Translations under genes and position numbers: made by a program | Notes under the pieces: model-generated | Seen by the model: the letters and a program-made list of their open reading frames with translations, nothing else | Database searches by the model: none | Told to the model about the DNA's origin: nothing | Shown here: piece after piece, positions 30,359 to 48,416 of the stretch | How positions within the stretch are numbered: the first letter of the stretch is position 1 | How the letters are laid out: the number at the start of each line of letters is the position of its first letter | Origin: Dehalococcoidia bacterium | Lineage (GTDB): Bacteria > Chloroflexota > Dehalococcoidia > Tepidiformales > Tepidiformaceae | Length of the DNA: 49,365 nt | Direction: 5' to 3' | NCBI GenBank assembly: GCA_007118095.1 | Contig: SKSF01000058.1 | Coordinates: forward strand, 1-49,365

Positions 30359-30516
30359 CGATGTCGATCCCGCCGAACCACCCTCGGAAGAACCAATCGA
30401 AGCTCAACACTGTCTCCACGTCTAACCACCATCTGCCCGCCAGTCCGCAGTACGGCGAAAGCGACGCTGAGCCCCGGTTTGGCGCGAAAATCAGCCTGTA
30501 CGGCTGCACCACACGC

Positions 30517-30522
30517 TATACT
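30517..30522 (+). promoter_or_regulatory. Candidate -10 box of the tRNA gene
   Basis: TATACT ends ten bases before the mature 5' end of the tRNA. No matching -35 hexamer stands out. Confidence 0.4.
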
Positions 30523-30531
30523 GTCCCCCAC

Positions 30532-30607
30532 GGGCTCGTAGCTCAGCGGTGAGAGCACCCGGCTCATAACCGGTTGGTCGCAGGTTCAAATCCTGCCGGG
30601 CCCACCA
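30532..30607 (+). tRNA. tRNA with CAT anticodon (Met or Ile2)
   Basis: A 76-nt cloverleaf with encoded CCA. Acceptor GGGCTCG (30532-30538) pairs with CGGGCCC (30597-30603). The D arm has GCTC/GAGC, the anticodon loop CTCATAA puts CAT at 30565-30567, and the T arm is GCAGG-TTCAAAT-CCTGC (30580-30596). The variable region TTGGTCGC resembles tRNA-Ile2, whose CAT is modified by TilS to read AUA, but elongator Met cannot be excluded. Base pair 27-43 of the anticodon stem is a C-T mismatch. The 3' end is the likely attachment site for the adjacent integrase. Confidence 0.92.
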
Positions 30608-30610
30608 ACT

Positions 30611-30660
30611 GTCCCCCTTTACGTCAACTTTGAATTCAGCACACCCGCTGAAAGGGGGAC
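30611..30660 (+). promoter_or_regulatory. Inverted repeat that includes the integrase ribosome-binding site
   Basis: GTCCCCCTTT (30611-30620) and AAAGGGGGAC (30651-30660) form a perfect 10-bp inverted repeat with a 30-bp spacer. The right arm contains the integrase Shine-Dalgarno, four bases before the GTG. In RNA it would hide that site; in DNA it could be an integrase arm site. Confidence 0.6.
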
Positions 30661-30663
30661 TCT

Positions 30664-31617: not shown

Positions 31618-31628
31618 AGCGTGCTGGT

Positions 31629-33040
31629 TTAGCGACGAGCGTGTGGGAGGGGAGCGATGTGAGCATGGAAAAGAGCTATCGGGCGAGTCAATCTGAAGCA
31701 TGGTGAGGAGGCTGTTGCCGAGGTCGGTGGGCCCGTTTCTCTGGTGGTTGATGCCCGAGGAGAGACGTGACCGCTGCCTGGGCAGAGGAAGGCGGTGGCG
31801 TCGTCGAGTTTCAGGACGTTGTGGGCGGTGGAGACGAGGTTCCACTCGCCCTGACGGCCTGCTGGCCACGACGCAGGAACCGGCGGAAGCCACGCGCCCG
31901 TTGGATTTGGCCGAAGACCGGCTCGCCGACCTGTTTGCGTAGGCGATACAGTGCCCTGCCCTCGGCTGTGCACGGCCACGCCCGCATGGCCGTGCGGTAG
32001 GGCCAGTGCCGTGAGCCGCGCAGCGGTCCCGGGTCGGCGTCCGGGGGTTCGTCGTGGTGGTAGCGGCGGAGGCCGACTGCGGCGGTGACGCTGGCATCGG
32101 CGAGGGCAGCACAGTTCGCTTCGGAGGCATAGCCCGCGTCGGCGGTGAACCGGACGGGGAAGCGGCCAGTGTTGGCATGAATGTGTTCGAGCGTGGGCCG
32201 CAGCCGCTGGGCGGTGGGGCGTTGAAGACCTCGCAGGCCGTGATGACCTGGCTGTCGGTTCGACGGCGGCCTGGGCGTTATAGCATTGCTGAAAGCCCTC
32301 TGAGCCCTTCATGATGCAAGACTCCGGGTCGGTGAAATTGGACTGTGCCTTTGGCGGCACCTCGGCCGCTTCCGCGTCCTCCCCCCTGGCTTCCGCCTGC
32401 TCCCGGGCGCGCTCCTCCAGCCTGGCCTTCGCCTCCTGGATACGCTCCAGCCGCTCCTGTTTGCGCCGCATCTCCGGCGGCAAACGCCAGCCGTCGTCAT
32501 CTGGGCCGTACTCCGCGTCTTCCTCGGCGTCTTCGCGTTTGCCCGCTTCCAGCCAGCCATCGACTTCGGCCGCCAGCCGGGCTTCCTTCTCCAGCATGCG
32601 CCGGTAGCTCATCGCCTTGTGCCTGGAGGCGTTCGCCCGCACCTTCGTCCCGTCCAGGCTCACATGTCCCAACCGGACTAGCCCGGCTTCCGCACAGAGG
32701 CCCAGGACCTGGGCGACGAGGCCTTTGAGCTCCCCGGTGAAGCGCTGCCAGAACTCTCCGATGGTGTGGTAGTCGGGCGTAGCCCTGCCCACCAGGTGAA
32801 TGCAGGCCACGTCGCGCTGGCAGAGCTCGGCCAGGTTGCGCGAGGAGGAGGTGCGGCCCATGGAGCCGTAGAGAAACCCACCACGAGCGCCGAGGCGTAG
32901 GGCGGTCGTCGCCGCTCACAGCGGTAGATGGGGGTGGAAGGCTTCGAGGTCGAGTTTCTGGATGGTCTCCTGGAGAAAGAACGCCGGGCGCCCGTCGGGG
33001 ATGAGTCCAGCCAATGAGGGTGGAAGGAGGAAGCCTTGGT
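31629..33040 (-). pseudogene. IS1182-like transposase, frameshifted
   Basis: A near full-length transposase split over several frames. From N to C: LPPSLAGLIPDGRPAFF (about 33,026 down), a TGA after HPHLPL, a shifted segment RRRPPYASALV, then a long open part from about 32,861 starting at GRTSSSRNLAELCQRDV and including HVSLDGTKVRANASRHKAMSYR, then frame loss after CYNAQAAVE. EWNLVSTAHNVLKL is still readable near the end. Related IS1182 proteins have this order: an N-terminal DUF772 region, then a DDE region. No terminal inverted repeats or target duplication could be identified. It directly follows the integrase and is inactive as written. Confidence 0.8.
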
Positions 33041-33104
33041 CAGGGGCTGAACCGCCCCCTCCTGGTTGGCCACTGGCCTGGCGTTGTGATGCTCCGCGAC
33101 ACCC

Positions 33105-34010
33105 CTAATTCCCGGGCCCACGTCCATGAGTATGGATGCGGATGTTGCCTCCGACGAGCTCGGTCGGTTCCAGTTGATATCGGTCGGCGCCATCCTCGCA
33201 GGCTGTGACGTCAATGCCGAACGCGTCCGCGCCGTCCCTCGAACCGTCCCACGCATTCACCTGGAAGTCACAGACGGTCTCGTCATTCAGCACACCCATG
33301 CCGCGGAACTGCGCGCGAGGCTCGCCGGTCACCACCAGCCATTCCATCTCCGTGCTGACGAAACGGATATCGCCGTCGCGGAACTGGAACTGGAGGTTAC
33401 CCCCGGAATGGTGCGGCCCATACTGTACTGGGACACGAACACGAAGCTTGCCCGGCCGGGCGCTTCAGGGTTTTCCAGGTCGGCCCCGGCTGGCGGGCGA
33501 CGGGACCCAGCCTCCACCCGTCACGAACCCCGCACTCGGGTCGTAGAACACGATCAGGGTCGGCTCCGATTGGCTCGGCTCGTGCGGGCCGTCGCCCGGG
33601 TAGAGGGCCTCGATCTCGTCCACTGTCGGGGATGACGAGGTGAACGGTATCGAGCATGAACGGCTTGTCCCGTCCTGCCCCTCAAGGGTGCACTGCCCGG
33701 CGTCTTCACCGTTACGCTTGAATTGAATGGTGCCGGACGGCGCTGTCTCTCCTTCCGTGGAACCGGCGTCCGATACCGTGGCGGAACAGGTGATGTCCCC
33801 GCCCACCTGCTCCACTTCCGGCGAGCACACGATCGTGGTGTCGGCCGCCCGCACGACCTCGCTGAAGACCGCGAACACCGTCATGTCCTCATCCACCGTC
33901 ACCGTGGTGATGGCACTGTCCGCCTCGGCGACCGGGCCCGTCCAGTGGCTGAACTCCCAGCCTGAGTGGGCGATGGCTACCGTTCGCCCTGGCCGCTCTT
34001 GATGTCATCA
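33105..34010 (-). pseudogene. Fragment of a secreted repeat/adhesin-like protein, frameshifted
   Basis: Three reading frames continue one protein. The first part (about 34,005 to 33,480) reads AHSGWEFSHWTGPVAEADSA, an InlB B-repeat-like unit, then an Ig-like part with TIQFKRNGEDAG, then AGFVTGGGWVPSPA. The frame shifts to GADLENPEAPGRASFVFV and again to GGNLQFQFRDGDIRF, EMEWLVV and the end near 33,105. GFVTGGGW followed by an LQFQF.DGD.RF region is a known secreted C-terminal module. The N-terminus and signal peptide are missing, so this is a truncated relic. Confidence 0.7.
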
Positions 34011-34122
34011 AGGAAGGTTAGACCCCTCGTTGAGCGGCGGCGCGGTCCAGCCTGTGGTGGATTGGCGGCCTTGTGCCGGTCACCCTATGACATATCCATA
34101 AGCGTGGGTGGCTGGCGCCCGA

Positions 34123-34548
34123 TCACTGTTTCTGGTTCGAGCCAAGCCACTCCCACGTTCGGTAGTGATAGTTGCCTTCCGCATCGGACTCGAATTCGGT
34201 CACGTACGCCGCCCGGTTGAGCCGGTCGAGTCCGGTGCTGGCCCCGTGAAAAGCCCCGGCAACAGCGGAGTTCTCGCCGAAGCCCTCACCCGTGAGACGG
34301 GCGACTGAGAAGCCCTCCCAGGGTGCGATCTCGCCTTCAGTGGTCTGAATGAGGTTTTTCCCCTCGGCGAAGGCCACCCCACCCGGGCGGCTCACCTGGA
34401 TGTACGTGCCAATTTCGGTCATCTCTTTGCCCAGTATGGTCCCTTGCCCCTGGAAGCTGGCCTCAACTTTGGAGTTCATTCCATCGATGGAGAGGACACG
34501 CACTCCAGTGACTTTGCCCCGACTCTCTGCTACCAGTTCTCCGAGCAT
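34123..34548 (-). CDS. Conserved small protein of unknown function
   Basis: A 141-residue soluble protein, mainly beta strand by eye, with VTGVRVL, GKEMTEIGTYIQVSRPGG, EGKNLIQTTEGE and a C-terminal TEFESDAEGNYHYRTWEW. I recall similar stand-alone proteins of this length in other bacteria but no assigned role. AAGGAGG six bases before the ATG fixes the start. It is the gene after the beta-helix gene on the same strand, with a hairpin between. Confidence 0.7.
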   Translation of the reverse strand: MLGELVAESRGKVTGVRVLSIDGMNSKVEASFQGQGTILGKEMTEIGTYIQVSRPGGVAFAEGKNLIQTTEGEIAPWEGFSVARLTGEGFGENSAVAGAFHGASTGLDRLNRAAYVTEFESDAEGNYHYRTWEWLGSNQKQ

Positions 34549-34580
34549 GTGCTTCCTCCTTCAGAAGCTGGTTGCCCCGT

Positions 34581-34612
34581 GAGACGCGACCGATACCGCC
34601 GCCGCGCGTCTC
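34581..34612 (-). terminator. Hairpin after the beta-helix gene
   Basis: GAGACGCG (34581-34588) and CGCGTCTC (34605-34612) form a perfect 8-bp stem with a 16-nt loop, 27 bp past the stop of the beta-helix gene. There is no U-tract. Confidence 0.4.
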
Positions 34613-34638
34613 CGATACTCATTCGCCTGGCGTGAGCC

Positions 34639-37600
34639 TTAGCACTCCAGGCGAACCTGGAGCTGCTCCGCGGCATCGATGAGGGTGTTCGCATCATCCT
34701 CAGACAGTCGCCGTCCAGACTGCGCCTCGACCTGATTGATGAACCCCGTCAGCTGGCCGCAGGCCGCCTGATTGTTGCCGCGTTCAATCGAGGCCTCAAT
34801 CTGCTCCGCCACATTTTGCGTGCTCTGCAGGGCGTCCACGGTTTCCGCCAACTCGGCGAGATCGCCTGCAACATCGTCGAGGGTGACTTCCACAGAACCA
34901 ATATCGCAGGTGCCTTCTGGCGGCTGAGGCCTTGGTACGCCGCGCTGGTCCACCGCGGGGCAAGAGTTGTGGTTGGCCGCGTGGATAGCAGCGCTTCCGA
35001 GCAACGGACGATGAGTCTCGGTTGGACCGCCGTTATCCTGCAGCGGGCCGAGGTGCAGGTCGTCGACCAGTGTGAAGGCGCCCGTCGGGCAACCGCTGCC
35101 GGTGAGGGCGAGGTTATGGGTACCCTCTATGGTACCCGAGCAGGCGAAGACGATGGAGTTCACGGTGGTGACTGTGCCGTCCTCATTCACGAGGCCCCCG
35201 CCTCGCCCGTCCCAGAGTGTGACATGAGTAAGGTCGAGGGTGCCGCCGACTTCGACACGAGCAGTACCACCCTCCGTGTTCTCAGCCGTGTTCCCGCTCA
35301 GCGTGCTGTTAACGAGATCCGCCTGCGCCTCGCTCCCGCTGACAAAGATGGCAGCACCGCGCATCGCGCTGTTGCCGGAAACCTCGGTGCCCGTCACATC
35401 CAGCGTGCCTACGTCGAACTCATCAGCACCAGTTTGGAAAGCCAGGTTTGCGATAGCCCCGCCGGAGGCAGCGCTGTTGTCGGCGAAGACGCTGTCGACG
35501 ACCTCGAGCGTGGCGAGGTTCAGGATGCCGCCGCCCTTACCGCCTGGCTCCCCCTGCCCGCCCAGCGAAGTGCTGTTTCCACGCACTTCGCTTCGAGTCA
35601 GCGTCAGTGAGCCGTCCCCCCAGTTCCCGATGCCGCCTCCGCCTACTCCAAGGGAAGCGGCGGGATGGTCGGTGGCACCGCCGAAGTTCTCGCTAATCGT
35701 GCTGGCGGTAATCGTCATCATGCCCGAGTTGAAGATACCGCCACTACCGTGGTAAGCGTGGTTGCCGGTGACCTCGCTGTCAGCCAGCGTGAATGAGCCA
35801 TCATTGGTGATAGCGCCTGCGCCCAGGCCGGCCCCGTTCTCGGTAAGTTCGCTGGCGGTCACAGTGACCTCACCACCGTTGGCTATGCCGCCGCCGCCGG
35901 CCGCGTTGTTACCGGTCAGGGTACTCCCTTCGACCGATAGTACGCCTTCGAAAGATAGCCCTTGCCACTCGAAAGCCTTGCTTGCAACAGCACCACCCTC
36001 AAAAGCATCGTTCTCGGCGAAGGTGCTTTCGACGACGTCCATCATCCCACCGTTGAACACGCCGCCACCCCTGCCCTCCAGGTTTGCGTGGGTTATGGGT
36101 TCACCCGGAAGCAAGGCATCGTTCCCGCTCACTGTACTGTTGGTGAGTGTCAGGATGCCTCCGAAGTTGTTGATGCCTCCGCCAGTCGGCGCGGAATTCC
36201 CGCTGACCGTGCTATCCGTAAGGCTCAGCTCACCAAGGTTTGTGATGCCGCCGCCGCCGCCAAGGGGATCGCCAATCAACTCCTCGTCGAAGTTGATGCT
36301 GCCGCCAGCGAAATTGTCGCTGACGGTGCTCCCGGTGATCGTCATGGTGGCCCGCACCACCCATTCGCCATCCTCGTGGGCACCGCCGTTGTAGATGCCG
36401 CCAGAGTGGTGATAGGGCGCTTCGTTGCTGCTGACAATACTGTTGCTCAGCGTGAAGGAACCATCGTTGTGAATGCCGGCCCCGACCCGGCCGACCAGGT
36501 TGTCGATGATCTCGCTGTCGGTCACGGTGGCCTCACCGTCCGGGCCGTTCGCTATGGCGCCGCCATAGCCCGAGCTGTTGTCAGACAGGGTGCTCCGTTC
36601 AACTGAAAACGCCCCGTCTTCAACGAAAATCGCGCCGCCTTCCCCGGCAGCAATATTCGCCTCAAAGCTGCTGTCGAGCACCGTGAGCTCGGCGATGCCT
36701 AGCTTGGGGTCGGAGCCACCGTTCGCGATGGCGCCGCCATTGGGTGCCGCATTTTCTTCGAAGATGCTGTCTGAGACCGTCACGTCGCCATCGGCATTCG
36801 AGATGGCACCTCCCCCGCTAGTTACGAAGTAAGGCTCTTCTTGTGAAGGAACGCTGTTCCGGAGGAAAGTACTCTCGCTGACCTGGACCGATCCGTGGTA
36901 GTTCACGATCGCGCCACCTAGGTTTGCAGCGTAGTTATCTTCGAATACACTGTTCGTGATCCTCACTGTGCCCCAAACGTTTTCGATGGCCCCACCGTGA
37001 CCGAAGGGCTCGTTGGCCGCCTCCGTCGCCGTGTTGCCACTAAACGTGGAGTCCACGATCGTCATGGTGCCTGTGTGCTGGCTGATTGCAGCACCCAGGT
37101 TCGCCTCATTGTCCGAGAAGGTACTGTTCCGGACGATCAGGTCTCCTTCTTTCAAAATCGCACCGCCCATACCAGAGCCACCGCCAGGACTCTCGCTGGT
37201 CGCTACGTTTCCGCTGAAAGTGCTGTCTTCAATCGTCACCTTGCCAGCGGACATGATCACAGAGCCACCGCCATCGGCGGAGCCGTTTTGCAGGGTGAGT
37301 CCGTCCAGAGTCAGGTCACCAAATACCCAGAAATGGCGGCTCTCCCCAGCGCCATCGATCGTGATCTCTCCCCCGCCCTGGATCGAGATTACCGAGTCGA
37401 TGGCGATGGTCGGTAGCTGACTCCCATTCAGTGTGATCGTGCCGCTCAGGCCGGGCGCGAAGGTAATCGTGTTTGCGCCATCAGAGCCCGCAGCGCAGCC
37501 CGGGTGGGTGGCCTCGCCATCGATGGCGTTCTCCATCGCTTCCCGCAGGGTACATTTGCCCGCGACACCTACGTCATCATCCAGGCTGTCCACCACGATG

Positions 37601-37785
37601 GTGGTGGTCTGGGCAGTGCCGGGAGACGGCCCCAGCCATGCCACCGCCAGCATGGCCCCAAGGGTGACGGCCAACCCGAACAGTGCGGCGCGGCGCGCAT
37701 GCGCCTTCCGGCGCATCGGTGCCGGCCTCTTTTGGGCGACCGCACCTTGCGGCATCTCAGTGGCCGTGCGGTGCCCATGGTTCAT
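34639..37785 (-). CDS. Secreted right-handed beta-helix protein (CSLREA/Pmp-like)
   Basis: A 1048-residue surface or secreted protein. The hydrophobic export segment lies at about 32-52, and KCTLREAMENA (about 77-87) is a CSLREA-like domain. The body (about 100-930) is a long series of GGAI/GGGI, SxxSxN and TGNxA units typical of polymorphic-outer-membrane-type parallel beta helices. The end of the repeat region has GGPTETHRPLLGSAAI and CDIGSVE, a common closing module. The last 80 residues, with RGNNQAACGQLTGFINQV and a terminal cysteine, are a helical module seen at the C-terminus of similar proteins. ATG 37785 has AAAGGA ten bases upstream. Adhesion is likely but inferred. Confidence 0.85.
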   Translation of the reverse strand: MNHGHRTATEMPQGAVAQKRPAPMRRKAHARRAALFGLAVTLGAMLAVAWLGPSPGTAQTTTIVVDSLDDDVGVAGKCTLREAMENAIDGEATHPGCAAGSDGANTITFAPGLSGTITLNGSQLPTIAIDSVISIQGGGEITIDGAGESRHFWVFGDLTLDGLTLQNGSADGGGSVIMSAGKVTIEDSTFSGNVATSESPGGGSGMGGAILKEGDLIVRNSTFSDNEANLGAAISQHTGTMTIVDSTFSGNTATEAANEPFGHGGAIENVWGTVRITNSVFEDNYAANLGGAIVNYHGSVQVSESTFLRNSVPSQEEPYFVTSGGGAISNADGDVTVSDSIFEENAAPNGGAIANGGSDPKLGIAELTVLDSSFEANIAAGEGGAIFVEDGAFSVERSTLSDNSSGYGGAIANGPDGEATVTDSEIIDNLVGRVGAGIHNDGSFTLSNSIVSSNEAPYHHSGGIYNGGAHEDGEWVVRATMTITGSTVSDNFAGGSINFDEELIGDPLGGGGGITNLGELSLTDSTVSGNSAPTGGGINNFGGILTLTNSTVSGNDALLPGEPITHANLEGRGGGVFNGGMMDVVESTFAENDAFEGGAVASKAFEWQGLSFEGVLSVEGSTLTGNNAAGGGGIANGGEVTVTASELTENGAGLGAGAITNDGSFTLADSEVTGNHAYHGSGGIFNSGMMTITASTISENFGGATDHPAASLGVGGGGIGNWGDGSLTLTRSEVRGNSTSLGGQGEPGGKGGGILNLATLEVVDSVFADNSAASGGAIANLAFQTGADEFDVGTLDVTGTEVSGNSAMRGAAIFVSGSEAQADLVNSTLSGNTAENTEGGTARVEVGGTLDLTHVTLWDGRGGGLVNEDGTVTTVNSIVFACSGTIEGTHNLALTGSGCPTGAFTLVDDLHLGPLQDNGGPTETHRPLLGSAAIHAANHNSCPAVDQRGVPRPQPPEGTCDIGSVEVTLDDVAGDLAELAETVDALQSTQNVAEQIEASIERGNNQAACGQLTGFINQVEAQSGRRLSEDDANTLIDAAEQLQVRLEC

Positions 37786-38215
37786 ATCAGTTCAGTCCTT
37801 TCACGTGCCGTCCGGCGGAAACGTGTAGCGAGAGCCAAGCTTCCTGTTGGTGAGAACCGCTTCCGTTGTCGATCCATCCGTAACTCTTGCTCCCCACGCA
37901 CCAATACGTAACGGTCTTCACGGCCCTGTCCAACACCCCTTCGCCCGTGCGGTCCTCCGTGACCACCTGCCACAGAACTCAGCACGGGCTGCACCGGACG
38001 AGTTCGCAGCACCTTCACACGGCCTGGATAGCATTTCCATGTAAGCCGAAGCGCGACGCATAGCAAAGGAGTAGCGCCGCGGTGGACATTCACCATCGCG
38101 GCAGGTTATGTATTACCGGGCGTGGCATCTCCCGAATTCGGCGGCACGGGCCGGAGGGCGGAAAGGTCGGGCACGACAGTACTGCCTTCGAGGGCCCGCG
38201 GCGACCAGCCCGGGC
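37786..38215. other. Noncoding stretch between the two minus-strand gene groups
   Basis: About 430 bp with only weak open frames and no recognisable product. It presumably holds the beta-helix promoter. A hairpin, GCCGCGGTGG (38076-38085) with CCATCGCGGC (38093-38102), nine pairs plus one G-U, may end the upstream operon. Confidence 0.4.
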
Positions 38216-38557
38216 TCACACACTCAGCCCGAACCTGCCGTGGACGGCCAGGTTGTACAGGACGAGGATCAGCAGCCCCAGGAACCACAGCGGAAGGAAC
38301 AGCAAGAAGGGATAAACGATCAGCGCCCAACCCCACGCCTCGTTGCCCGACTCGCGATCGGCGATGCCGTCGTACACGGCAAGGGCCAGTCCCCCAACAA
38401 CGCCGACCAGCCCCACGTACACGGGGATGAACTGCATCTGGCCCAGGAGGGCAACCATTACGGTGACCAGCGCCACCAGTACCGGGATCGACAACACCAG
38501 AACGATCCGGCCCCGCTCGGAACTGGAGGACCGAGCACCACCGCTGCCGCCGTCCAT
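38216..38557 (-). CDS. Small membrane protein with three hydrophobic segments
   Basis: A 113-residue protein with an N-terminal Ser/Gly-rich stretch, then hydrophobic segments at about 20-40, 44-60 and 78-103. No family is recognised. GAGGAGG lies six bases before ATG 38557, which fixes the start 11 bp after the HEAT gene stop. It is the last gene of the coiled-coil/protease/HEAT cluster. Confidence 0.7.
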   Translation of the reverse strand: MDGGSGGARSSSSERGRIVLVLSIPVLVALVTVMVALLGQMQFIPVYVGLVGVVGGLALAVYDGIADRESGNEAWGWALIVYPFLLFLPLWFLGLLILVLYNLAVHGRFGLSV

Positions 38558-38568
38558 GCACATCCTCC

Positions 38569-40050
38569 TCAGGTCTCGTCCCCTTTGCGCTCGCGCTCTG
38601 CGTTCCACGCTTCAAGACTCGTGCGCTGGGCGGGCGTAAGGGCCTCGTCGTGCAGTTGGGCCACCCTGTGAAGCGCTTCGCCAGTAACACGCCGCTCGTC
38701 TCGGAGTTGGTTTGCGACCTCCATCCTCTCTTTCATCTCGTCGGGATCGTCAAACACCGGTTCGCTGTAGACCTCGAGCCAACGGTCGACGTGGTGCCAG
38801 GCGGCGATGAGGGGTTCGACGGACGGAGCTCCAAGCGAGCTTGCCTTCTCGTAGTCGCCCCTGGCCACCCAGTACCACGCGCCGGCCTCGCCGCGGTCGG
38901 GCTCCCAGCCGAGCTTGGTCAGCGCCTCTGCCGCCGCAGCCGTCCCGTAGGCCTGGCCGGCGGGGAAATTCGGCAAAGTATAAGCGACGGGCGTCTGCCG
39001 CTTGAGCGCGGCGATGAGCGGTTCGACGGCGGGGGAGCCGATCCTGGCTAAAGCAGTCACGGCTGCTTCGGGTTCCGGCCCCCATAGCTCGGCGATCAGT
39101 GGTTCCACATCACCGAGTTTGCCCAGAGCTTCAGCCGCCAGCACCGACGCGTTCCCATCCCCCAGCGAAGCCCTGAGCGGTTGGATGGCCGGCTCGCCGA
39201 TCTTGACCAGCGCCGCGAGGGCGCGCCGCGGCTGGTCGTGGTGCCCCAGGCGGGCGATGAGTGGCTCGACAGCCGGGGCCCCGAGTGAGATGGCCTTCCC
39301 GTACTCACCCGTGCCGACCAAGTACCAGGCGTTATCATCCTCCGGCTCCCACCCGAGCCTTTTGAGCGCCTCTGCCGCCCCGCAAAAACGGTCGGGGTGG
39401 CGAACAGCAGCGATGAGTGGTTCGATGGCCGGTTCGCCGATCTCGACCAACGCCTTCACGAACGGCTCACGGAACTTGGCCGTGTACTCAAGACGCTCGA
39501 TGAGCGCCGCGGTGGCCTTACGGGTGGCCCCCGGGCGATCTCGCGCAGCGCCGATCCTTCCCAGTGCCGCGATGATGGCCTCCTTGGCCTCTTTCTTCTC
39601 GTATCCATACGCCTCGATCAGCGGAACAACGGCCGGAGCACCGATTTTGACAAGCGCAGCCAGGGCGTTGTTGCGCACCTCCGGCGAGTACCCGAGAGCC
39701 CTGATGAGCGGTTCTATGGCCTGCGCATCAGCACGAGCGCCGAGTGCTTCGGCGGCACACGCCGCCACCCGCGAATCGTCGTCGTCCAGCGCATAGATGA
39801 GCGGTTCGACGACACGCCTATTCTTCATCTTACCCAGGGCCCGGGCCGCAGCCTCGCGCACCCCCTTCTCTTCGTCCCCGAGGGCCTCGACCAGCGGCTC
39901 GATGGCGTGCCCGTCAGCGAGGACACCGAGGGCCTCGGCCGCAGCCGTGCGGACCCCTGCATCCTTCTTGTAGGTCAGGGCCTTGGTAAGCCCCCGGACA
40001 TCGTGCTTCTCGGACATTTTGCTGACATTTGGCGGTCCAAAGATGCCCAT
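38569..40050 (-). CDS. HEAT-repeat (PBS-lyase type) protein
   Basis: A 493-residue soluble protein made of about ten helical HEAT repeats of the form AIEPLVEAL..VR.AAA.ALG. Two LGW-x-P...AWYWVA.G-x-Y-x-K...SLGAP units (about 222 and 385) are specialised repeats seen in related proteins. The C-terminal 90 residues are charged helix. HEAT repeats bind proteins; no catalytic part is seen. GGAGGG lies five bases before ATG 40050, and the longer frame to 40101 has no such site. It lies 63 bp after the protease gene. Confidence 0.87.
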   Translation of the reverse strand: MGIFGPPNVSKMSEKHDVRGLTKALTYKKDAGVRTAAAEALGVLADGHAIEPLVEALGDEEKGVREAAARALGKMKNRRVVEPLIYALDDDDSRVAACAAEALGARADAQAIEPLIRALGYSPEVRNNALAALVKIGAPAVVPLIEAYGYEKKEAKEAIIAALGRIGAARDRPGATRKATAALIERLEYTAKFREPFVKALVEIGEPAIEPLIAAVRHPDRFCGAAEALKRLGWEPEDDNAWYLVGTGEYGKAISLGAPAVEPLIARLGHHDQPRRALAALVKIGEPAIQPLRASLGDGNASVLAAEALGKLGDVEPLIAELWGPEPEAAVTALARIGSPAVEPLIAALKRQTPVAYTLPNFPAGQAYGTAAAAEALTKLGWEPDRGEAGAWYWVARGDYEKASSLGAPSVEPLIAAWHHVDRWLEVYSEPVFDDPDEMKERMEVANQLRDERRVTGEALHRVAQLHDEALTPAQRTSLEAWNAERERKGDET

Positions 40051-40113
40051 GGCATCCCTCCTGTAAGCGGGTCTGTGGCTGGTCAGACACCTCGGGCGCA
40101 TGGCCCAATGCGA

Positions 40114-40965
40114 CTAGCATATGTCGAGCTCCGAGCACACGCGGTCAATCGGGATCGCGAAACCGAGGCCTTCGTAGGCGATGAGGCCAACCTTCCAGGT
40201 GGCGACGCCGATAACCTGGCCCTGCGTGTTCAGGATGGGGCCTCCGCTATTACCTGGACTGATCTGGGCGCTGATCTGTAGCCACGTCTCGGCATCGACC
40301 CGCCGCTCGACCGCGGACACGATGCCCGCGGTCACCGTCCCCTCCAGCCCTCCGCCCGCGCCGACTGCCATGACAGGGTCTCCGACGCGCGGTGGTGTGT
40401 CGGCCGGCTCCAATGCGGGCAGGTCGGCGGATACCGTGATGAGGGCGAGATCGTGGGCGGGCCTGACCTTCACAACCTCCCCCGCGTATTCGCGCCGTCC
40501 CCGTGCGAGGAACACCTCGCTCGCGCCCTCGACGACGTGGTAGTTCGTCACCACCAACGATCGACGGCCGTCCTTCGCCAACACGAACCCGGTTCCAACC
40601 GACGTCCAATCGTCGTCGGCGTGAGCGACGACCATGAAAATGGACGGCGTGGTCGTTTCGGCCAGTGCGACGGGGTCGAACTCGGCAACTACGTCCCCTT
40701 CGAGCAGGCTCATTCGTTCGCCCAGGGCGTCGAGTTCCGCGCCGAACGCGTCGAACCTTTCGCCCGGCTCCGTGTCTGCCCGGTCGTCGGCTGCAATGTC
40801 GCCTCGTAGCGAGGCAACGTCGCTCTCGACCTGGTCGATAGAGCGCCATAAGGCGACATTGGTGATGAGGAGTGCCGCGATCAGGAGCGCGGCAACTGCG
40901 ATGACCACAGTTGCCGCGCTTCTGGACCGGAGGGGTCCGCGCGCAGCATTAGCGCTGCGCGTCAT
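40114..40965 (-). CDS. Membrane-anchored trypsin-like serine protease (S1C/DegP-like)
   Basis: A 283-residue protein. One N-terminal membrane helix (about 18-38) is followed by a short coiled coil (about 41-95), then a chymotrypsin-fold domain (about 97-283) with H143 (TNYHVVEG), D172 (AHDLALI) and S240 (SPGNSGGP). The catalytic triad is complete. There is no PDZ domain, unlike DegP. The active domain is probably outside the membrane. ATG 40965 follows GGAGGG and overlaps the upstream gene by 17 bp. Confidence 0.9.
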   Translation of the reverse strand: MTRSANAARGPLRSRSAATVVIAVAALLIAALLITNVALWRSIDQVESDVASLRGDIAADDRADTEPGERFDAFGAELDALGERMSLLEGDVVAEFDPVALAETTTPSIFMVVAHADDDWTSVGTGFVLAKDGRRSLVVTNYHVVEGASEVFLARGRREYAGEVVKVRPAHDLALITVSADLPALEPADTPPRVGDPVMAVGAGGGLEGTVTAGIVSAVERRVDAETWLQISAQISPGNSGGPILNTQGQVIGVATWKVGLIAYEGLGFAIPIDRVCSELDIC

Positions 40966-41590
40966 CGCCACCCTCCGGCAGCGGCGCACGATCAACCATC
41001 AGGCGGCGAATCTCGTCCAGGTAATCCAGTGAACGTACTATTTCCGGGTTCACCTGGTGCTCCAGGATGCCGTCGACTGCGTTCGCGTTCGCATCGGTCG
41101 GGTTGGCGAAGAAGCGGTCCAGGGCCGCCATTGCCTCGTCCTCCGCGTCGAACAGTGCCACGCTGCACCCGCACGCGGAGTCAGCGACGGACATGATTTC
41201 TTCCGCATCTGCTGCGAAGAGCCCGGCCTGTTCCGCCATCTCGTCCGCGGCCGCTTGGGCCTCCTCCTGGGCAGATGCAAGGTCTGCCCGGGACGCAGCC
41301 AGTTCGTCCTCGTTCGTTGCCAGCTCACCCTGCGCGCGTGCCAGGTCGCCTCGCAGTTCTGCTTGAGCGCCCTCGTCTACGCCGCCGCCAATAGCGCCGA
41401 ACAATCCAAGGGCTGCTCCTGCGACGAGTATGCCCACAGAGGCGATCATGGCTATGCCCGTGTAGGGTCGCCCGCTCTGCTCGGACGAAGGAGGCGGTGC
41501 GGGGGCCGCCTCCGGCGAGTACCATTTGCCATCGCTTGCCTGCCACCATCCCGGTTCCGGGGGTGCGTCGAGTCCCTGGTACTGTGTCAT
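40949..41590 (-). CDS. Membrane protein with WWQASDGKWY motif and coiled coil
   Basis: A 213-residue protein. The N-terminus has PGWWQASDGKWYSPE (about 13-27), a short DUF2510/GYF-like motif known from actinobacterial membrane proteins, then Pro/Ser-rich linker, one membrane helix (about 44-70) and a Glu/Ala-rich coiled coil (about 76-122). A possible metal- or disulfide-forming CGC occurs near 139-141. It overlaps both neighbours (4 bp and 17 bp), so it is in one transcript with the protease. Function unknown. Confidence 0.78.
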   Translation of the reverse strand: MTQYQGLDAPPEPGWWQASDGKWYSPEAAPAPPPSSEQSGRPYTGIAMIASVGILVAGAALGLFGAIGGGVDEGAQAELRGDLARAQGELATNEDELAASRADLASAQEEAQAAADEMAEQAGLFAADAEEIMSVADSACGCSVALFDAEDEAMAALDRFFANPTDANANAVDGILEHQVNPEIVRSLDYLDEIRRLMVDRAPLPEGGDDAQR

Positions 41591-42096
41591 CGGTCTCCCC
41601 CACTGTTTGCGAGCGTCTGCTCCAGCTCGGCCAGCGCTGCTTCCGCCTCTTCGAAGGCTTCCAGAAGCGCGTCACGGGCGCCCCGGACCGCCTCGAGAGC
41701 CGGCTTCACCTCCGCGTCGACGTCCGCAGCCAACTGTTCAATCGAGGTGTCCCGGGCAAGCGCCGCGTTCCACGCGGCAACTTTGTCCTGTGACGCCTCG
41801 ACGAAGTCCTCGAAGTGCTCAACCCAGTCGACCAGTGCCTGGTCCAGGTTTCCCGCTGCGGTAACCATCGCCTCCTGGCCTTCCTGGTCCGAGACCACAG
41901 CGAGCAGTTGAGCATCGACCTCGGCCTTCTCCGCGGCCACGACCGTCGCGTCATCATCCACTGCAGCTATCTCGTCGTTGAGACGGTCGATCTCCGGGTC
42001 GTCTGCGGTCAGTCGCACGACGCCGACTATCCCGAGACCTACCCCGACCACGACAAATGCTGCTCCGAGGAGCAGCATTGTCCGGGTGCGTTCCAC
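41587..42096 (-). CDS. Membrane-anchored coiled-coil protein
   Basis: A 169-residue protein with one N-terminal membrane helix (about 7-28) and a long acidic coiled coil (about 34-165), a layout shared with the next gene. The open frame continues without a stop into an IS256-like transposase remnant up to 42609. GTG 42096, with GGGGA seven bases upstream, gives a normal short membrane protein and is preferred. The 4-bp overlap with the WWQASDGKWY gene makes coupling likely. Confidence 0.7.
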   Translation of the reverse strand: MERTRTMLLLGAAFVVVGVGLGIVGVVRLTADDPEIDRLNDEIAAVDDDATVVAAEKAEVDAQLLAVVSDQEGQEAMVTAAGNLDQALVDWVEHFEDFVEASQDKVAAWNAALARDTSIEQLAADVDAEVKPALEAVRGARDALLEAFEEAEAALAELEQTLANSGGDR

Positions 42097-42191
42097 TTGT
42101 GTATCCCCGCTAACATTCGGGTGAATTTCGGCAGCCTTCGTGTATTGTCCTCTGCCGTTGTCATAATCGTAGAACACGGGGTCACGCGAAT

Positions 42192-42213
42192 GATACGGGC
42201 GAGCGACCGTATC
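42192..42213. promoter_or_regulatory. Operator-like inverted repeat before the coiled-coil/protease cluster
   Basis: GATACGG (42192-42198) and CCGTATC (42207-42213) form a perfect 7-bp inverted repeat with an 8-bp spacer, about 96 bp upstream of the first gene of the cluster. The 22-bp span and 15-bp centre spacing suit a dimeric regulator. Confidence 0.4.
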
Positions 42214-42289
42214 TCTGAGTCCGAATGCGCATAATAGCTTGCAGTAATCCCCGATACGGCAGGACGCCGCCCGCCCCACCCCGCCATGC

Positions 42290-42935
42290 TGCCCCACCGT
42301 GGAAGTCTCGATCTGGCCTGGCCGGGCCCCGCGCAAACGCTCGCGCAGGGTGGTGTCGCGCTTCGGCAGTTTAGCCAGGAGATTGCGCAGACGGTGGCCG
42401 GTGCAGCGCTGGCGGTCTGCATCCGGCCAGAGATCGCGCACGCCCCGGATGAGGACCGGCGCACCGTCGGTCATGACCAGCCAGGGCGAGGGAAGGCCAC
42501 GTTTGACGAGGTCGCGGCCCCAATCGAGCCAGTCCTCGTAGCATTCCCGCATGCCTGGGCGCACCGCTACGAGTTCGCGCTGGCCTGAGCGGGTGTAGCC
42601 CCAGGCCACCAGGACGCCTTCCTTCTCCCCGCGCGGCCTTGTCCGCAGATAGACCGCGTCCAGGAAGAGGGCGATGAGCTCGACGCCCGCGAGCTCCCGC
42701 GCTCAGAAGGCGGCGTAGTGGCTGTAGAGCTGGCGGCAGAGCTTGCTCAACACACGGGTGCACACGATGCTGCGGGTCTCGGGGATGACCTCGCTGGTGC
42801 CCCAGACCTGGGGCATGGCGGCGCCGATCTTGCCCTCGGCGGTCTGGATGCGGCGCTGGCGGTGGCCGTTGCGCCAGCCGCGCGCCTCCGGGTTGGGTTC
42901 ATAGCGTGCGCGGGCGAGGAAGGCTTCTCCTCACT
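42290..42935 (-). pseudogene. IS256-like (Mutator-type) transposase remnant
   Basis: The remnant reads NPEARGWRNGHRQRRIQT, then GKIGAAMPQVWGTSEVIPET, a TGA near 42,702, and after it ELIALFLDAVYLRTRPRGEK and GYTRSGQRELVAVRPG with WLVMTDGAPVLIRGV and RQRCTGHRLRNLLAKLP. These are mutator-type transposase motifs in the right order. Both ends are missing. Its frame runs on into the coiled-coil gene by chance. It lies between the two main accessory clusters. Confidence 0.75.
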
Positions 42936-42970
42936 TTTTCAACACTCGTCAGGCGCGACCGCCCAGCCCC

Positions 42971-44218
42971 TCACGCGCGAACAACATACGTATGCGCCAT
43001 CTTGTCATGCCAAGTTCGGATCTCTTCGTCCCAGGCTGCCGACAAGTAGCCCAAGCCGACTGCCAACACGCTCAGAGCAGACCCACCCGTGCGCGTCAGT
43101 CCGCGTCGCACCCCAGGGTTCGCACCTTCGGGGTCGACGATACGGATGCCCACGGCAAGCTTTCCCGGACTCCTTCCGCTTGAGTTGAAGATCCACAGTG
43201 CGATTGGAACCACTACTGCAAAGAACACCGCCCCGGCGAGGTATTCAACCACAGTGAGGTCTTCGTCTTCTGCCCAGACCCACTCCTCGATCACATCTGG
43301 CATATTGATCACGTAACTAAGCTCATACATAACAGCAAATGTTATGAACCAAAGCAAACCGCCCGCTACGATGATTAGCATCACATCAATTGCAAACCCG
43401 CCCAATCGTATGCCGAATGTGCCGAGTTCGAGTGGCCCCCGTGGCGTGTGAATGGCTCTGCTTGGAGGGGCACCAGCCGGGCGCTCACGGGGCGAACCAC
43501 CTGCGGCTACCGGAAAGTGGTCGATTTGGTCGAGGCGCGGCTCGTCCTGGTGAACCGTCTGATCTGTCTCGAGTGTGGCCTCCAGTGCAGCAAGTTCGCT
43601 GTCGACGCGGACCAGCACATCGTCGCGGTGCCGAAAGCGACGCGTGAGGGCGAGTAAATCAGCGACCGGAAAGCCCTCCTTGATGCGGTGGCGCAACTCC
43701 TCCACTAGCTCGTCCTGTCGCTGACGTGACATCGTCCCGGTCTCATCAAAGGCGGCCTTCAGATCGAAGAGATAACTCGCCGGCACGGGCGGTGGTGTCG
43801 GTAATGTGTCGGGGAGGGGTGTCGACGCGGGCAGACTGCTCAGGGCACGGCTAAGCGCAGCGAACGCGGCCTTGTCCTCGGTGGTGTAGTCGACCCTCTG
43901 CACTTCACCGAGCAGGGGCGGGAGCAGGTTCTCGGAAAAGTCCCGCTCGATTACCACAGGAAGGATCTGCTTGCCAAGCGCCTCTGCATACTCGAGCTCG
44001 CTGACGCAGGCACGCGAGTCAACGGCCTCAGCGCTCAGCGCGAAGACGAACACGTCGCATGCGCGCAGCTCGGAGAGGATCTGCTCCCACCAGCGCCGCC
44101 CGCCAGTCAGCTTCTGGTCATACCAGACCTCGTGCCCGAGGCTCTCAATGTCAGCCGCAAGATTCCGAACGCGCGCAACGTTCTTACTGCTGTGACTGAT
44201 GAAGGCTCTACGAGTCAT
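42971..44218 (-). CDS. TIR-domain protein with C-terminal RDD membrane domain
   Basis: A 415-residue protein. The TIR domain (about 1-130) starts RRAFISHSSKN, with HEVWYDQKLTGGRRWW, and ends in a helix with SRACVSELEYAEAL, where Glu74 is the likely NADase residue. A charged, proline-rich middle part (130-260) leads to an RDD domain (about 267-415) with RLGGFAID, two to three membrane helices and SSGRSPGKLAVGIRIVD. Bacterial TIR domains consume or make NAD-derived signals; RDD domains are membrane modules. ATG 44218 begins at the domain edge, and the frame to 44362 is not needed. Placement after SLOG and RCK-RyR genes suggests it is the membrane effector. Confidence 0.86.
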   Translation of the reverse strand: MTRRAFISHSSKNVARVRNLAADIESLGHEVWYDQKLTGGRRWWEQILSELRACDVFVFALSAEAVDSRACVSELEYAEALGKQILPVVIERDFSENLLPPLLGEVQRVDYTTEDKAAFAALSRALSSLPASTPLPDTLPTPPPVPASYLFDLKAAFDETGTMSRQRQDELVEELRHRIKEGFPVADLLALTRRFRHRDDVLVRVDSELAALEATLETDQTVHQDEPRLDQIDHFPVAAGGSPRERPAGAPPSRAIHTPRGPLELGTFGIRLGGFAIDVMLIIVAGGLLWFITFAVMYELSYVINMPDVIEEWVWAEDEDLTVVEYLAGAVFFAVVVPIALWIFNSSGRSPGKLAVGIRIVDPEGANPGVRRGLTRTGGSALSVLAVGLGYLSAAWDEEIRTWHDKMAHTYVVRA

Positions 44219-44264
44219 GATCCTGTCCCACGCCGACCTGCCCTGAGCAGGAATCCCGTGTCTT

Positions 44265-44320
44265 CGTTGGTTTAATGGTACGTGATTCGCCGCACTGTGC
44301 CGTGAACAATCGAACCAACG
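44265..44320. promoter_or_regulatory. Inverted repeat between SLOG-like and TIR-RDD genes
   Basis: CGTTGGTT (44265-44272) and AACCAACG (44313-44320) form a perfect 8-bp inverted repeat with a 40-bp spacer in the 145-bp gap. It could be an operator or a hairpin between the genes. No clear promoter boxes were found. Confidence 0.25.
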
Positions 44321-44363
44321 GAACTCCCAGGCATGCCACCGGCCTCGCTTCCTGCGGGGCACA

Positions 44364-44927
44364 CTACTGAGACAGTGTTGCCGCGATGCCGCCGGTCAGT
44401 TCTTCCTTCAGTTGCGGTTCACCGTTCGTGCGAATCCAAAACAAAGGACGCTTGCGACCTCGCGCGTAGGCGACGATTTCGGCTGTGCCCCCCTGACCTC
44501 GTGATGGCTCACCATCCCAGAGCGCGATCAGCACGTCACTGTTGTCAACGACATAGCGCCCAGCCCGCTCGTAGGCCTCGTCGCGACTCCCTGGCTGTTG
44601 GAGCTCCGTTACCACCTCCGCCCGGCCAAGCAAGCTCATAAACTCGTGCTTGGACTCGTCTGTCTCGAAGTCCTTCAGGTACTCCTCCCTCGGCATCGGG
44701 AGAGGAACTTCTAACCGTGCATTCGGATCTTTCACAAGCTCCCTCACAACCAGACGGTCAAAGCCCTCTGCGAGCGGCGAGATGATTGTGAAAGTTAGTT
44801 CCACGGACGATGAGGACGGGATCAGCTCCCGTATTCGCTCAAGAACGCGCTGCACCTGCGTGGCCAGTGCCGATTCATCACGGAGGCTTCGATGCCCGGT
44901 GACGCCGATACGCAAGGTGAGAACCAT
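44364..44927 (-). CDS. SLOG-superfamily-like nucleotide-binding protein
   Basis: A 187-residue Rossmannoid protein. GVTGHR (8-13), SPLAEGFDRLV (50-60) and ALWDGEPSRGQGGTAEIV (135-152) match SLOG/LSDAT-type sensors, in which such loops bind nucleotides or nucleotide-derived signals. There is no membrane segment. AGAAGG lies eight bases before ATG 44927. The gene begins 28 bp after the end of the decayed ATPase. A sensor role for an NAD- or ADP-ribose-like ligand is inferred from family and neighbours. Confidence 0.8.
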   Translation of the reverse strand: MVLTLRIGVTGHRSLRDESALATQVQRVLERIRELIPSSSSVELTFTIISPLAEGFDRLVVRELVKDPNARLEVPLPMPREEYLKDFETDESKHEFMSLLGRAEVVTELQQPGSRDEAYERAGRYVVDNSDVLIALWDGEPSRGQGGTAEIVAYARGRKRPLFWIRTNGEPQLKEELTGGIAATLSQ

Positions 44928-44955
44928 AAGCCCAACCTTCTTCCGATCTGCCCGC

Positions 44956-45830
44956 TCACTGAGGTATGTCTTTGTTCAACCGAGCTAAGTAATCGCTCTG
45001 GGTCAACATTGAGACTGAGCTGATGCTGCGCCGGTAAGGCAGAGCGCTCATAGTAGAGTTTGTTGGAAAGAGCGCTCATCTGGACGAGGGACTCCATTGA
45101 GCGTGCTCCGTGCAGATAAGCGGGAACCCGGAGAAGCGCAATGAGTACACCATTATCGATGTTAGCCCGTCCATCGAAAAAATCTGTGGGGCATGCCTCA
45201 TCAGTAAACCTCGAAGCAAGAACGTTCGCCGCAATACGAACCCGTCGTCTTCGTCATCAACAGGGTTCGGTCCCAGGATATCCACGAATCCACGGAGACG
45301 GCTCAGGAAGTCCGTTCCCTTAAGCTCTGGCCTATCTGTTGCACGCGTCTTAACGCTGGAGAGTGTCGCGTGGGTCCCGCCTGCGACGACGAAGATAGCC
45401 GAGCCGAGGGGTCGCAATATCCCTTCCTCCGCGAACTCGCCGTCCTGCATAGGGGAAAGGAAATGAACAAGCCAGCCAAGTTCGCGACCTTCCAGGGCGC
45501 TGTCGAATTCGTCCCAGAAGACCAGGGGCAAGGTTCCACGGACAACCTGGTCTCGTAGCCGTTGAAACGCCGCAGTAAGGTCAGCGGGTCCATCGAATTG
45601 GGAGAGGTTGAATTCAAGTACCTCTATTCTCAAGCTTCAGATCTCCACTGGCGCGGCAGCTCTTTGATAGCGAACGACTGACCGGCCCCCGGCGGCCCAA
45701 ACGCAGCATGTTAAGAGGTCCTCGACTGGCGGGACTGCGAAACATGCTCCTGGATGATGTTGACGGGAGATTGTTCTCGACCGTGCTTATGTAGCTGGTG
45801 TTTACCGATACGGTGCTAGCCTGAAATCGA
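44956..45830 (-). pseudogene. AAA-type ATPase of the RyR cluster, multiply frameshifted
   Basis: One ATPase can be followed through at least four frame changes. From the 5' side: SRGPLNML, a shift to FGPPGAGQSF (Walker A, with the lysine replaced by Gln), a TGA, then a 185-codon open part with EVLEFNLSQFDGPADL and Walker B PLVFWDEFDSAL and SRLRGFVDILGPNP. A shift at a run of six A (45177-45182) leads to RVPAYLHGARSMESL, and a last one to YLARLNKDIPQ ending at 44956. These fit a single family of ATPases found beside RyR proteins. The Walker A change alone would disable it. The N-terminal boundary is approximate. Confidence 0.75.
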
Positions 45831-45858
45831 GGTGAGAGCCGGAAGGAGCGCGACATGG

Positions 45859-47673
45859 CTACCTTACTCTGTCGATGCCGCCATCCTTCGCGGGTGCCAA
45901 AGTGCTCTGCGCGCCCAGGCGCACAATTTCAAGGTCGACCTGGGCCAAGAATCGCGGCAGGCTGCGAATCGTGGACCGATCCCAGTCCTTCACATCAGCG
46001 CTGAGTTCATGCCAGGGAACGAGGTGCTGGCTCTTTTTCTGTGTGGTGTCCTTCTGGCCGCGAATCCAACCCGCCTGCCGCCGTTCCTCCAACCATCGGA
46101 CATGTTCCATCTCGGCCAATCGCTCGACTTCCTCGTCCGTGAACTGGAAACGCTCAGCATTCCACGCCGTCAGCGGAGTGAGGATGCATCCTGCCTCCCT
46201 CAGCTTGACACCGATATGTCTCGCCTGCGCACGGTTTGACTCCTTGAGGTGGTCAGCAAGTGCCTCCCACGGTGTCACTGAGGGGTTGGTCTCCGATGTC
46301 TCTCCTTGCGCCTCCTGGCGCCGGACGTACTCCTCGTGGATTGCTCGCGCGATCATCTCGAAGGTGCCCCCGAGCACCAAATCAGGGTCACATAGCTGCT
46401 CCAACAGGCCGAACCCCTTTAGCGTCCCAGTGCCCGTCGCGTCGGCGGTCTGCTCTTCGACCAGCGCAGCCAGTCCGCCGGAGCGAGGCGTTCGGACTAC
46501 AATCGGCACGCCATAGTCGCGAAGCTGATGGTGCAATTTGAGGGCCACTCTCATGCCGACAGCGCTATCGGCCAGGCATACATATATACGTGATAGATCG
46601 CAGTCGCCTCGGGAATCGAACAGGAAGGCTGCCCTCTCGAATTCGGGTGACTCGAAGGCCATCTGCTGTGGTATCAGATCACAAGCGTCTCGTAGCTGGG
46701 GATGGCGCTCCAACATTGCGGCCGTCTTTGCCTGGGCCTCTCTATCCACGACAGTGATTCGAAGCGGAGAAACCCCGTTCTTCCGACTACGCTCCCAGTG
46801 TCTTGCAGCGTGCACGATCAGCCTCTCGGCCAGCCGTCCCAGGCCCAGCACCATCACGTGCGCCTTCCCGTCGGCGCGGAGCACTTCGTCTGGGGGATGG
46901 TCTCGCACCAGGGCACGTGCACCTGCATCGAAAACGTTGAAGCAATCCAACCGACTGTGCATCGGTCTGTGCTCGCCCAGTTCAGATGCCTTCAGGAAGG
47001 ATTGCAGCTGCGGGTCGACGATGTGGACATTCAAGGTGAGGCCTCGAGACCCCTCTCGCAGGGCCAGCTCGCGGGCACGGGCGGCCATCTCGCCATTCGT
47101 GCGATCCTCACCACTCACGCAAATGACATGTCTGGCTCTGTGCACTCTTGCGGTGCGAAGTACCTCGGGGTCGGTTGCGTCACCTACGAGCACGATTGCT
47201 CCAGCGCGTCGGCACAGCCTGATCAGTTGATTTGTCCCATCCTTCTCGATGACGAGTACTCGCTCGCCCTGCTCCCGCAAAGATCGCGTAATCAGGAACC
47301 CTCTGTCGCCCAGCCCGCAAACAACGATCGAGGGAGGGCGAAGCTGCGCAAGGAGAAGGCCTGCTTGCTCCCGAAACAAGCCTGCAACCGCCTTCAGTCC
47401 CACATACGCTCCAATGGCCGGTATAAGGAAACGGGCAATCTGGAGCTCCCAAGGCACGTGGCGCCCTCCCAAATCTCCGCCCTGCAGAACCAGGAGCTGG
47501 AGGGTACGGTAGAGGGCGTCGAGCAGGGACAAGGAAGCGTCGAGCCTCACGAACCCCACCAGCCCCAACGAAAGTGCCGCCGCGGCAACGAGGCCCACGA
47601 TCGGCCACTCGTAGCGGCCAACCATAAACGCCACCGATCGGCTTGCGTCGGTTAACCAGGCGGAGAACCTCAT
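45859..47673 (-). CDS. Membrane protein with two RCK/TrkA-N domains and a C-terminal RyR domain
   Basis: A 604-residue protein. Two membrane segments (about 22-42 and 80-100) precede RCK-N 1 (VVCGLGDRGF, about 118-126, to about 250) and RCK-N 2 (VMVLGLGRLAE, about 273-283, to about 400). Both have GxGxxG-like dinucleotide loops. Residues about 435-580 are a RyR domain with EMEHVRWLEERRQAGW, HLVPWHEL and VKDWDR. RCK domains bind NAD(H) or other nucleotides and gate ion channels. Bacterial RyR proteins have been predicted to act in nucleotide-sensing conflict systems. GGAGG lies nine bases before the ATG. It leads the minus-strand cluster ending in TIR-RDD. Confidence 0.88.
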   Translation of the reverse strand: MRFSAWLTDASRSVAFMVGRYEWPIVGLVAAAALSLGLVGFVRLDASLSLLDALYRTLQLLVLQGGDLGGRHVPWELQIARFLIPAIGAYVGLKAVAGLFREQAGLLLAQLRPPSIVVCGLGDRGFLITRSLREQGERVLVIEKDGTNQLIRLCRRAGAIVLVGDATDPEVLRTARVHRARHVICVSGEDRTNGEMAARARELALREGSRGLTLNVHIVDPQLQSFLKASELGEHRPMHSRLDCFNVFDAGARALVRDHPPDEVLRADGKAHVMVLGLGRLAERLIVHAARHWERSRKNGVSPLRITVVDREAQAKTAAMLERHPQLRDACDLIPQQMAFESPEFERAAFLFDSRGDCDLSRIYVCLADSAVGMRVALKLHHQLRDYGVPIVVRTPRSGGLAALVEEQTADATGTGTLKGFGLLEQLCDPDLVLGGTFEMIARAIHEEYVRRQEAQGETSETNPSVTPWEALADHLKESNRAQARHIGVKLREAGCILTPLTAWNAERFQFTDEEVERLAEMEHVRWLEERRQAGWIRGQKDTTQKKSQHLVPWHELSADVKDWDRSTIRSLPRFLAQVDLEIVRLGAQSTLAPAKDGGIDRVR

Positions 47674-48110
47674 TGAGCCAAACCTCCGTAACTCACGCCT
47701 CCCGTGACGAAGTGGCTAACCGGTCCCCGGCACGCGTTCGGGCCACCCTGCCGAGCCTAAGCTTCTCACGTCACCGGCGAAAGAGATGAAGATGTCAACG
47801 AGCCGCATACCGGGGGCATGGCAGCTTCGGCCGGCCCGCTCCGCCCCTTGGCTTAGGGGATCGGTGTTCCTAGGCGGTTCCGGTACATGCATGCGCGACA
47901 GCACAACACGCCTGACCGATGAGTCCGGGCTGTTGTTCGAGCAATCTCCCCAACCATCTGCAGTGGGGAAAAGCGATCGAGGAGCGCGCGACCATCGCGT
48001 CGATCTCATCTACACACCTTCCCTTGATTCCGAGATCGCCCACCAGGTCGTTCACGTCACGCCCCATTTCCGCCAGCCGAGACCTATCCGGGCCGTGGAC
48101 AGGCCGTGCT
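47674..48110. other. Stretch without an intact gene, upstream of the RCK-RyR gene
   Basis: About 440 bp with only short, unrecognised open frames on both strands. It should contain the promoter of the RCK-RyR cluster (minus). I see no clear -10/-35 pair or strong hairpin. Confidence 0.4.
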
Positions 48111-48287
48111 CCCCGCGGCGACGCGCTCGTGGCGATCTGGGGTGGCAACGGCGCCCAAGGTGTCGGCGGCACCGGCGCCATCGTTGCCGCAGCCCATGCA
48201 CGTGGCCTCTCGCTGACCTGGATCCGTGCCGGCAACCGCAAACCGGGCATGCTCAAACCCGGTGACGAGCAGGGCAAGAGCAGCTAG
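48111..48287 (+). pseudogene. C-terminal remnant of a SLOG-like protein
   Basis: The frame ending at 48287 reads GDALVAIWGGNGAQGVGGTG, then HARGLSLTWIRAGNRKPG and EQGKSS. This matches the C-terminal part of SLOG-like proteins (D-ALIAIWDG..A.GVGGT....RGLPLAWI.AGNR.PG). The N-terminal half could not be found in any frame, so it is a truncated relic. It lies on the same strand just before the WD40 gene. Confidence 0.55.
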
Positions 48288-48347
48288 GGTCATTATGTGC
48301 CGACACGGGCAACGATCGACGCTGTGAAGATCCGGGAAGGAGAGACC

Positions 48348-48416
48348 ATGCGACTCAACAAGCTCTGGGGGAGATGGAAGGCGCGCAGGGCCTCGGCACG
48401 AGAGGGTTGTTGGTGA
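48348..48416 (+). CDS. 22-residue basic peptide ORF, coupled to the WD40 gene
   Basis: A short ORF from ATG 48348, with GGAAGGAGA five bases upstream, encodes a basic peptide MRLNKLWGRWKARRASAREG ending CW. Its stop TGA (48414-48416) overlaps the GTG at 48413-48415, a likely start of the WD40 gene. It may be a leader peptide, or the remnant of an upstream domain. No known family is recognised. Confidence 0.45.
   Translation: MRLNKLWGRWKARRASAREGCW

Follow-up and report, generated by a model that had tools for sequence, protein, structure and literature searches.

A PDZ-less HtrA-type protease gene and a membrane coiled-coil partner gene within a five-gene block of a Dehalococcoidia bacterium

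Control of HtrA-type proteases usually lies with PDZ domains of their own; one of these proteases, DegS, is a single-span protein with its N-terminus inside the cell (N-in). In plants, the HtrA protease Deg5 lacks a PDZ domain and acts together with Deg8, itself a protease with a PDZ domain. MarP (Rv3671c; NF033740), a membrane-anchored protease with an outward trypsin-like domain, is not known to have a coiled-coil partner. MarP contains a disulfide near its very C-terminus and has a role in stress (PMC4992679). Trypsin-like peptidases with helper genes, and HEAT repeats as scaffolds, occur in conflict systems (Kaur et al. 2020, PMC7159879). The protease described here resembles HtrA, DegS and DegP (Do family, TIGR02037; S1C) in that its trypsin-like domain aligns with theirs over ~160 residues with an intact triad, but differs from them in the lack of a PDZ domain, a coiled linker, a C-terminal CX4-5C and an obligate membrane coiled-coil neighbour. 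It shares with MarP the membrane anchor and a trypsin-like domain predicted to face outward, but has one span, in contrast to the four spans and the long-range disulfide of MarP. The chloroplast Deg5 and Deg8 structures (4ic5 and 4ic6) match the protease profile; however, the partner in the present case is a helical membrane protein. Unlike the vWA-MoxR/VMAP and trypsin-NucA systems, the block contains no vWA, MoxR, STAND, NucA or Trypco component, none of which gave a Pfam match among the five proteins.

The window, a stretch of 49,365 nucleotides, is one contig of a 3.2-Mb assembly. All five open reading frames of the original prediction were found on the minus strand at the expected place (Table 1), and both predicted overlaps were confirmed: cc1 and the WWQ gene, named after its WWQASDGKWY motif, share the four bases ATGA, and the WWQ gene overlaps the protease gene by 17 bases. 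Start codons were assigned by comparison with G001, a genome of the same genus, whose contig also appears as a Dehalococcoidia metagenome assembly. The GTG start of cc1 (42096) aligns with an ATG in G001. The HEAT gene starts at ATG 40050 and not at 40101, 51 bases further in than the start given by the ORF finder, because the homology to G001 and a GGAG-type site begin there; the gap between the protease and HEAT genes, 63 bases in length, is poorly conserved. For the small membrane gene, the probable start is ATG 38557, 6 bases after a GAGGAGG sequence that is kept in G001. A search for a sigma-70-like site upstream of cc1 found none. We noticed that the 3' remnant of an IS256-family transposase (42350-42609) lies in frame with cc1 in the raw open reading frame, and automatic annotation may therefore fuse the two.

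Table 1. Features of the five-gene block, with positions in the window.
Feature	Position	Strand	Description
cc1	41587..42096	-	169 aa; predicted N-in single-span membrane protein with an acidic, probably coiled ectodomain; no family
WWQ (WWQASDGKWY gene)	40949..41590	-	213-aa partner protein
Protease	40114..40965	-	283 aa; ATG 40965; S1C/HtrA-type trypsin-like domain; no PDZ
HEAT-repeat protein	38569..40050	-	493 aa; without signal or membrane span
Small membrane protein	38216..38557	-	113 aa; three hydrophobic spans; no family
Conserved leader	42097..42181	-	candidate promoter/leader region 5' of cc1; the G001-homologous block begins here

The protease consists of a positively charged N-terminal tail, a span (residues 17-35), a coiled linker, a trypsin-like domain and a C-terminal CX5C (C277 and C283). 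As originally predicted, the catalytic triad H143, D172 and S240 is intact and a PDZ domain is absent: too few residues follow the catalytic serine, and there was no Pfam match to PDZ. The domain matched Pfam Trypsin_2 (4e-31), and its closest solved relatives are DegP/HtrA. The Do family model TIGR02037 gave E 6e-40 with a score of 137, below the family cut-off of 416; the MarP family model NF033740 gave a score of 72.5, below its cut-off of 250, and the protein has one span as compared to the four N-terminal spans of MarP. A structure model of the protease was unusable (pLDDT 34). Among eight aligned members, C277 and C283 were invariant. The distance from GNSGG to the end is 46-52 residues in the proteases found with a partner, in contrast to at least 148 residues in 25 of 27 other HtrA frames, as expected of proteins with a PDZ domain.

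An early wide contig scan for the protease, using patterns from the coiled linker, matched only the sister genome; the scan provides no evidence that the protease is absent elsewhere. When 400 genomes of the phylum were searched with a profile of the window and G001 proteases, six matches outside the genus stood well above the rest. All of these six best outside proteases were PDZ-less, carried the C-terminal cysteine pair and had the gene for a membrane coiled-coil protein immediately 5' of their own, on the same strand, the two genes being separated by a few bases or joined by a short overlap. Independently, 110 genomes of another class of the phylum were searched with the alignment of the partner family alone. 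The partner was found in 18 genomes, and a protease gene adjoined it at 17/17 loci that could be tested, i.e., those with the next stretch available (17 genomes of two families); one further strong match runs off its contig. The CX4-5C was present at all 16 further loci where the end of the protease is visible. Neither the partner nor the cysteine pair was found at any of the 27 other HtrA loci examined. Another PDZ-less protein, in L080, has no partner, and one weak partner match, in L125, has no adjoining protease. This L125 protein (994-1845) combines a GDGQWWWTGTQWV tail, spans and a partner-like cysteine ectodomain, and a tryptophan tail and a partner-like ectodomain may be combined more widely. 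The original prediction hinged on the homologues of the block being found together. This held for the protease and the partner, which always occurred side by side at the testable loci and form a conserved, hitherto undescribed pair. It did not hold for the full set of five, as cc1 and the genes for the HEAT and small membrane proteins accompany the pair in this genus only; no homologue of these three was found near the pair in the other class.

In a tree of the protease domain only, the window protease and the proteases of the other pairs formed one clade (support 96/85) with long branches. The window protease shares 33-39% identity over its length with those of the other class, and because of the long branches and this low identity, the joint clade may reflect attraction. 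Searches of phages, viral contigs and plasmids returned generic proteases only, without a partner. Of these matches, phrog_11383 matches the protease and no partner gene was found at the viral loci fetched, while the best plasmid match examined lay in a heat-resistance region and was an ordinary protease in a different context. The literature yielded nothing relevant on the WWQASDGKWY motif or on a PDZ-less HtrA protease with a partner.

The WWQ protein carries the WWQASDGKWY motif in a predicted cytoplasmic tail, followed by a span (residues 46-64), a coiled helix (73-162) with a CxC (C140 and C142) and another helix (166-200). Its structure model (pLDDT 69.5) shows the span, a helix of 90 residues and a second helix, and in a fold search with this model nothing in the PDB or among viral entries matched at E below 0.2. 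By profile comparison, WWQ is a distant homologue of the partner family. In hhalign, the pair of WWQ sequences scored 48 against a profile of 15 partners (probability 90.8%, E 1.2e-6), as compared with a mean of 18.2 (sd 3.8, maximum 29.2) for 60 block-shuffled controls, 17.3 for the reversed sequence and 14.6 for cc1. The alignment was supported by both MAFFT and hhalign only for the span, the coil and the cysteine region, the C-terminal part not being aligned with confidence. At the place of the CX5C of the partner-family ectodomain, the window and G001 proteins carry a CxC (ACGCS) and lack CX5C. The partner family had no convincing relative in Pfam, NCBIfam or the PDB. We also considered whether cc1 might be paralogous to WWQ or to the partner and rejected this, as hhalign gave probabilities of only 7% and 0.3%, respectively.

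A simple hydropathy analysis gave one span near the N-terminus each in cc1 (residues 9-27), WWQ and the protease, and three in the small membrane protein; the HEAT protein showed no span of that strength and no signal, and is presumably cytosolic. Ahead of its span, the N-terminal tail of the protease has four basic residues and none that are acidic. Since a positively charged tail precedes a single span, the catalytic domain should be located outside, and cc1 and WWQ are likewise predicted to be N-in. The suggestion that these coiled-coil membrane proteins form a complex is plausible, and is strengthened for WWQ and the protease by their recurrence as a pair elsewhere.

Since the pair recurs in another class, we consider it somewhat more probable than not that the core of the block is a two-gene membrane protease module, in which the partner stands in for a PDZ domain in trans, in envelope quality control. 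In this module, the gene for a PDZ-less protease of the HtrA type directly follows that for the coiled-coil partner; both proteins are predicted to be single-span and N-in with their domains facing outward, and they would assemble through the membrane spans and the coiled linkers. The partner may play in trans the role of the PDZ domain of DegS or DegP, i.e., sensing, substrate choice or gating, and the conserved cysteines on both proteins may form disulfides outside the cell. To this pair the genus would have added three genes, cc1 and those of the cytosolic HEAT protein and the small membrane protein; their place in the cluster is based on two genomes of one genus, and any role assigned to them is speculative. 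The HEAT protein could only dock on cytoplasmic tails. A more elaborate scheme appears doubtful to us, namely, that the sensor has moved to a separate membrane coil protein, that the cysteines constitute a redox switch and that a genus-specific relay reaches a cytosolic HEAT hub via the WWQASDGKWY tail. The module is a variant of HtrA-type proteolysis and no new kind of enzyme. If our reading is true, a recurring PDZ-less form always accompanied by its own membrane partner would represent a different control of envelope proteolysis, and this in a phylum in which the biology of the envelope has received little study. The pair is a defined two-protein system open to experiment, and it allows the annotation of members that currently pass as generic trypsin-like peptidases or hypothetical proteins.

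The HEAT protein matched Pfam HEAT_2 with E 1.7e-38. The original prediction regarded it as a possible scaffold of the protease, a proposal that we do not retain: with the protease domain predicted outside and the HEAT protein having neither signal nor anchor, the two should lie on opposite sides of the membrane, and thus the HEAT protein could not serve as a scaffold for the protease domain as such; moreover, the pair has no HEAT gene nearby in other lineages. This distribution also bears on a stress relay of the DegS/MarP type, in which the protease would cleave cc1, the partner or another membrane protein and the HEAT protein would be the cytosolic receiver. An outward protease, single-span N-in neighbours with cytoplasmic tails facing a cytosolic binding protein, and HEAT repeats close in sequence to the consensus of binding repeats (alphaRep matches) would all suit such a relay. 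We nevertheless judge it unlikely, as the cluster is without a sigma factor, an anti-sigma factor or a kinase, the HEAT gene is not beside the pair elsewhere, and no cleavage site is known. Generic HEAT homologues are common among relatives, occurring in 90 of 148 genomes; we tried them as a guide to the cluster and abandoned them, as none of the surrounding stretches that were fetched contained a protease. Other relatives encode similar HEAT proteins, with the best match in L011, and the window protein contains two inserts of the form LGWxP...AWYxV...GDYxKAxSLGAPxVEPLI (39270-39390 and 38830-38940).

In G001, all five genes are present in identical order over 4059 bp with 81.5% DNA identity (blastn), the block edge lying at 42181. 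The dN/dS values between the window and G001 were 0.34 for cc1, 0.31 for WWQ, 0.21 for the protease, 0.31 for the HEAT gene and 0.27 for the small membrane gene; the five genes are under purifying selection in this comparison. The identity falls rapidly between genes, the 63 bases between the protease and HEAT genes and the region past the last gene being poorly alignable, and ~85 bases 5' of cc1 are partly conserved. No second complete five-gene cluster was found in ~146 other relatives and 294 genomes of the class. In G001, a phosphotriesterase-type gene and a SnoaL-like gene border the block; both are found on another contig of the window genome, differently arranged and without the block. 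Because the flanks differ, the block is intact at two different places. The claim that the five genes are one unit, probably an operon, is supported by this comparison, in which the two overlapping junctions also overlap in G001. The same data bear on a chance neighbourhood of unrelated genes, held together by recent common descent or by one mobile segment. The presence of all five in two genomes only, and of the block in a variable part of the genome, would fit such an origin, which nonetheless seems quite improbable given the retained overlaps, the purifying selection at this level of identity, the different flanks on both sides and the recurrence of the protease-partner pair in another class. 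A comparison of L064 (contig C210 of the window genome) with L039 showed the phosphotriesterase and SnoaL-like genes near each other in changed relative orientation, and therefore an inversion or a similar change accompanied the move.

Within 30400-49365 of the window, only the block and a tRNA-Met matched G001. The leftward homology stops at the 3' end of the tRNA (30607) and a tyrosine integrase gene starts at 30664 (the two together spanning 30532-31617). Since the G001 homology ends at the tRNA end, this point marks the start of an integrated island, whose other end was not located. At 42971-47673, genes for a TIR and RDD membrane protein, a SLOG-like protein (weak YpsA match) and a TrkA_N and RyR protein lie adjacent to one another, likely a nucleotide-signalling or defence set of the island. 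Least probable of all the readings is that the block is an anti-phage or other conflict system on the tRNA-Met island, an idea suggested by these neighbours, the island edge at the tRNA and weak PADLOC matches (RT-Protease_XI and HEAT-ARM_XIII), but opposed by the G001 locus, where no defence gene is present on the 5.8-kb contig, by the lack of an NTPase, vWA/MoxR or nuclease in the block, and by relatives in the other class that share no defence context. Next to the block, a gene at 34639-37785 encodes an exported protein of 1048 aa that contains many Chlamydia-PMP-like repeats and, at its C-terminus, a FIMAH-like stretch, and WD40-type beta-propeller repeats are encoded on the plus strand at 48374-49363, where they are cut by the contig end.
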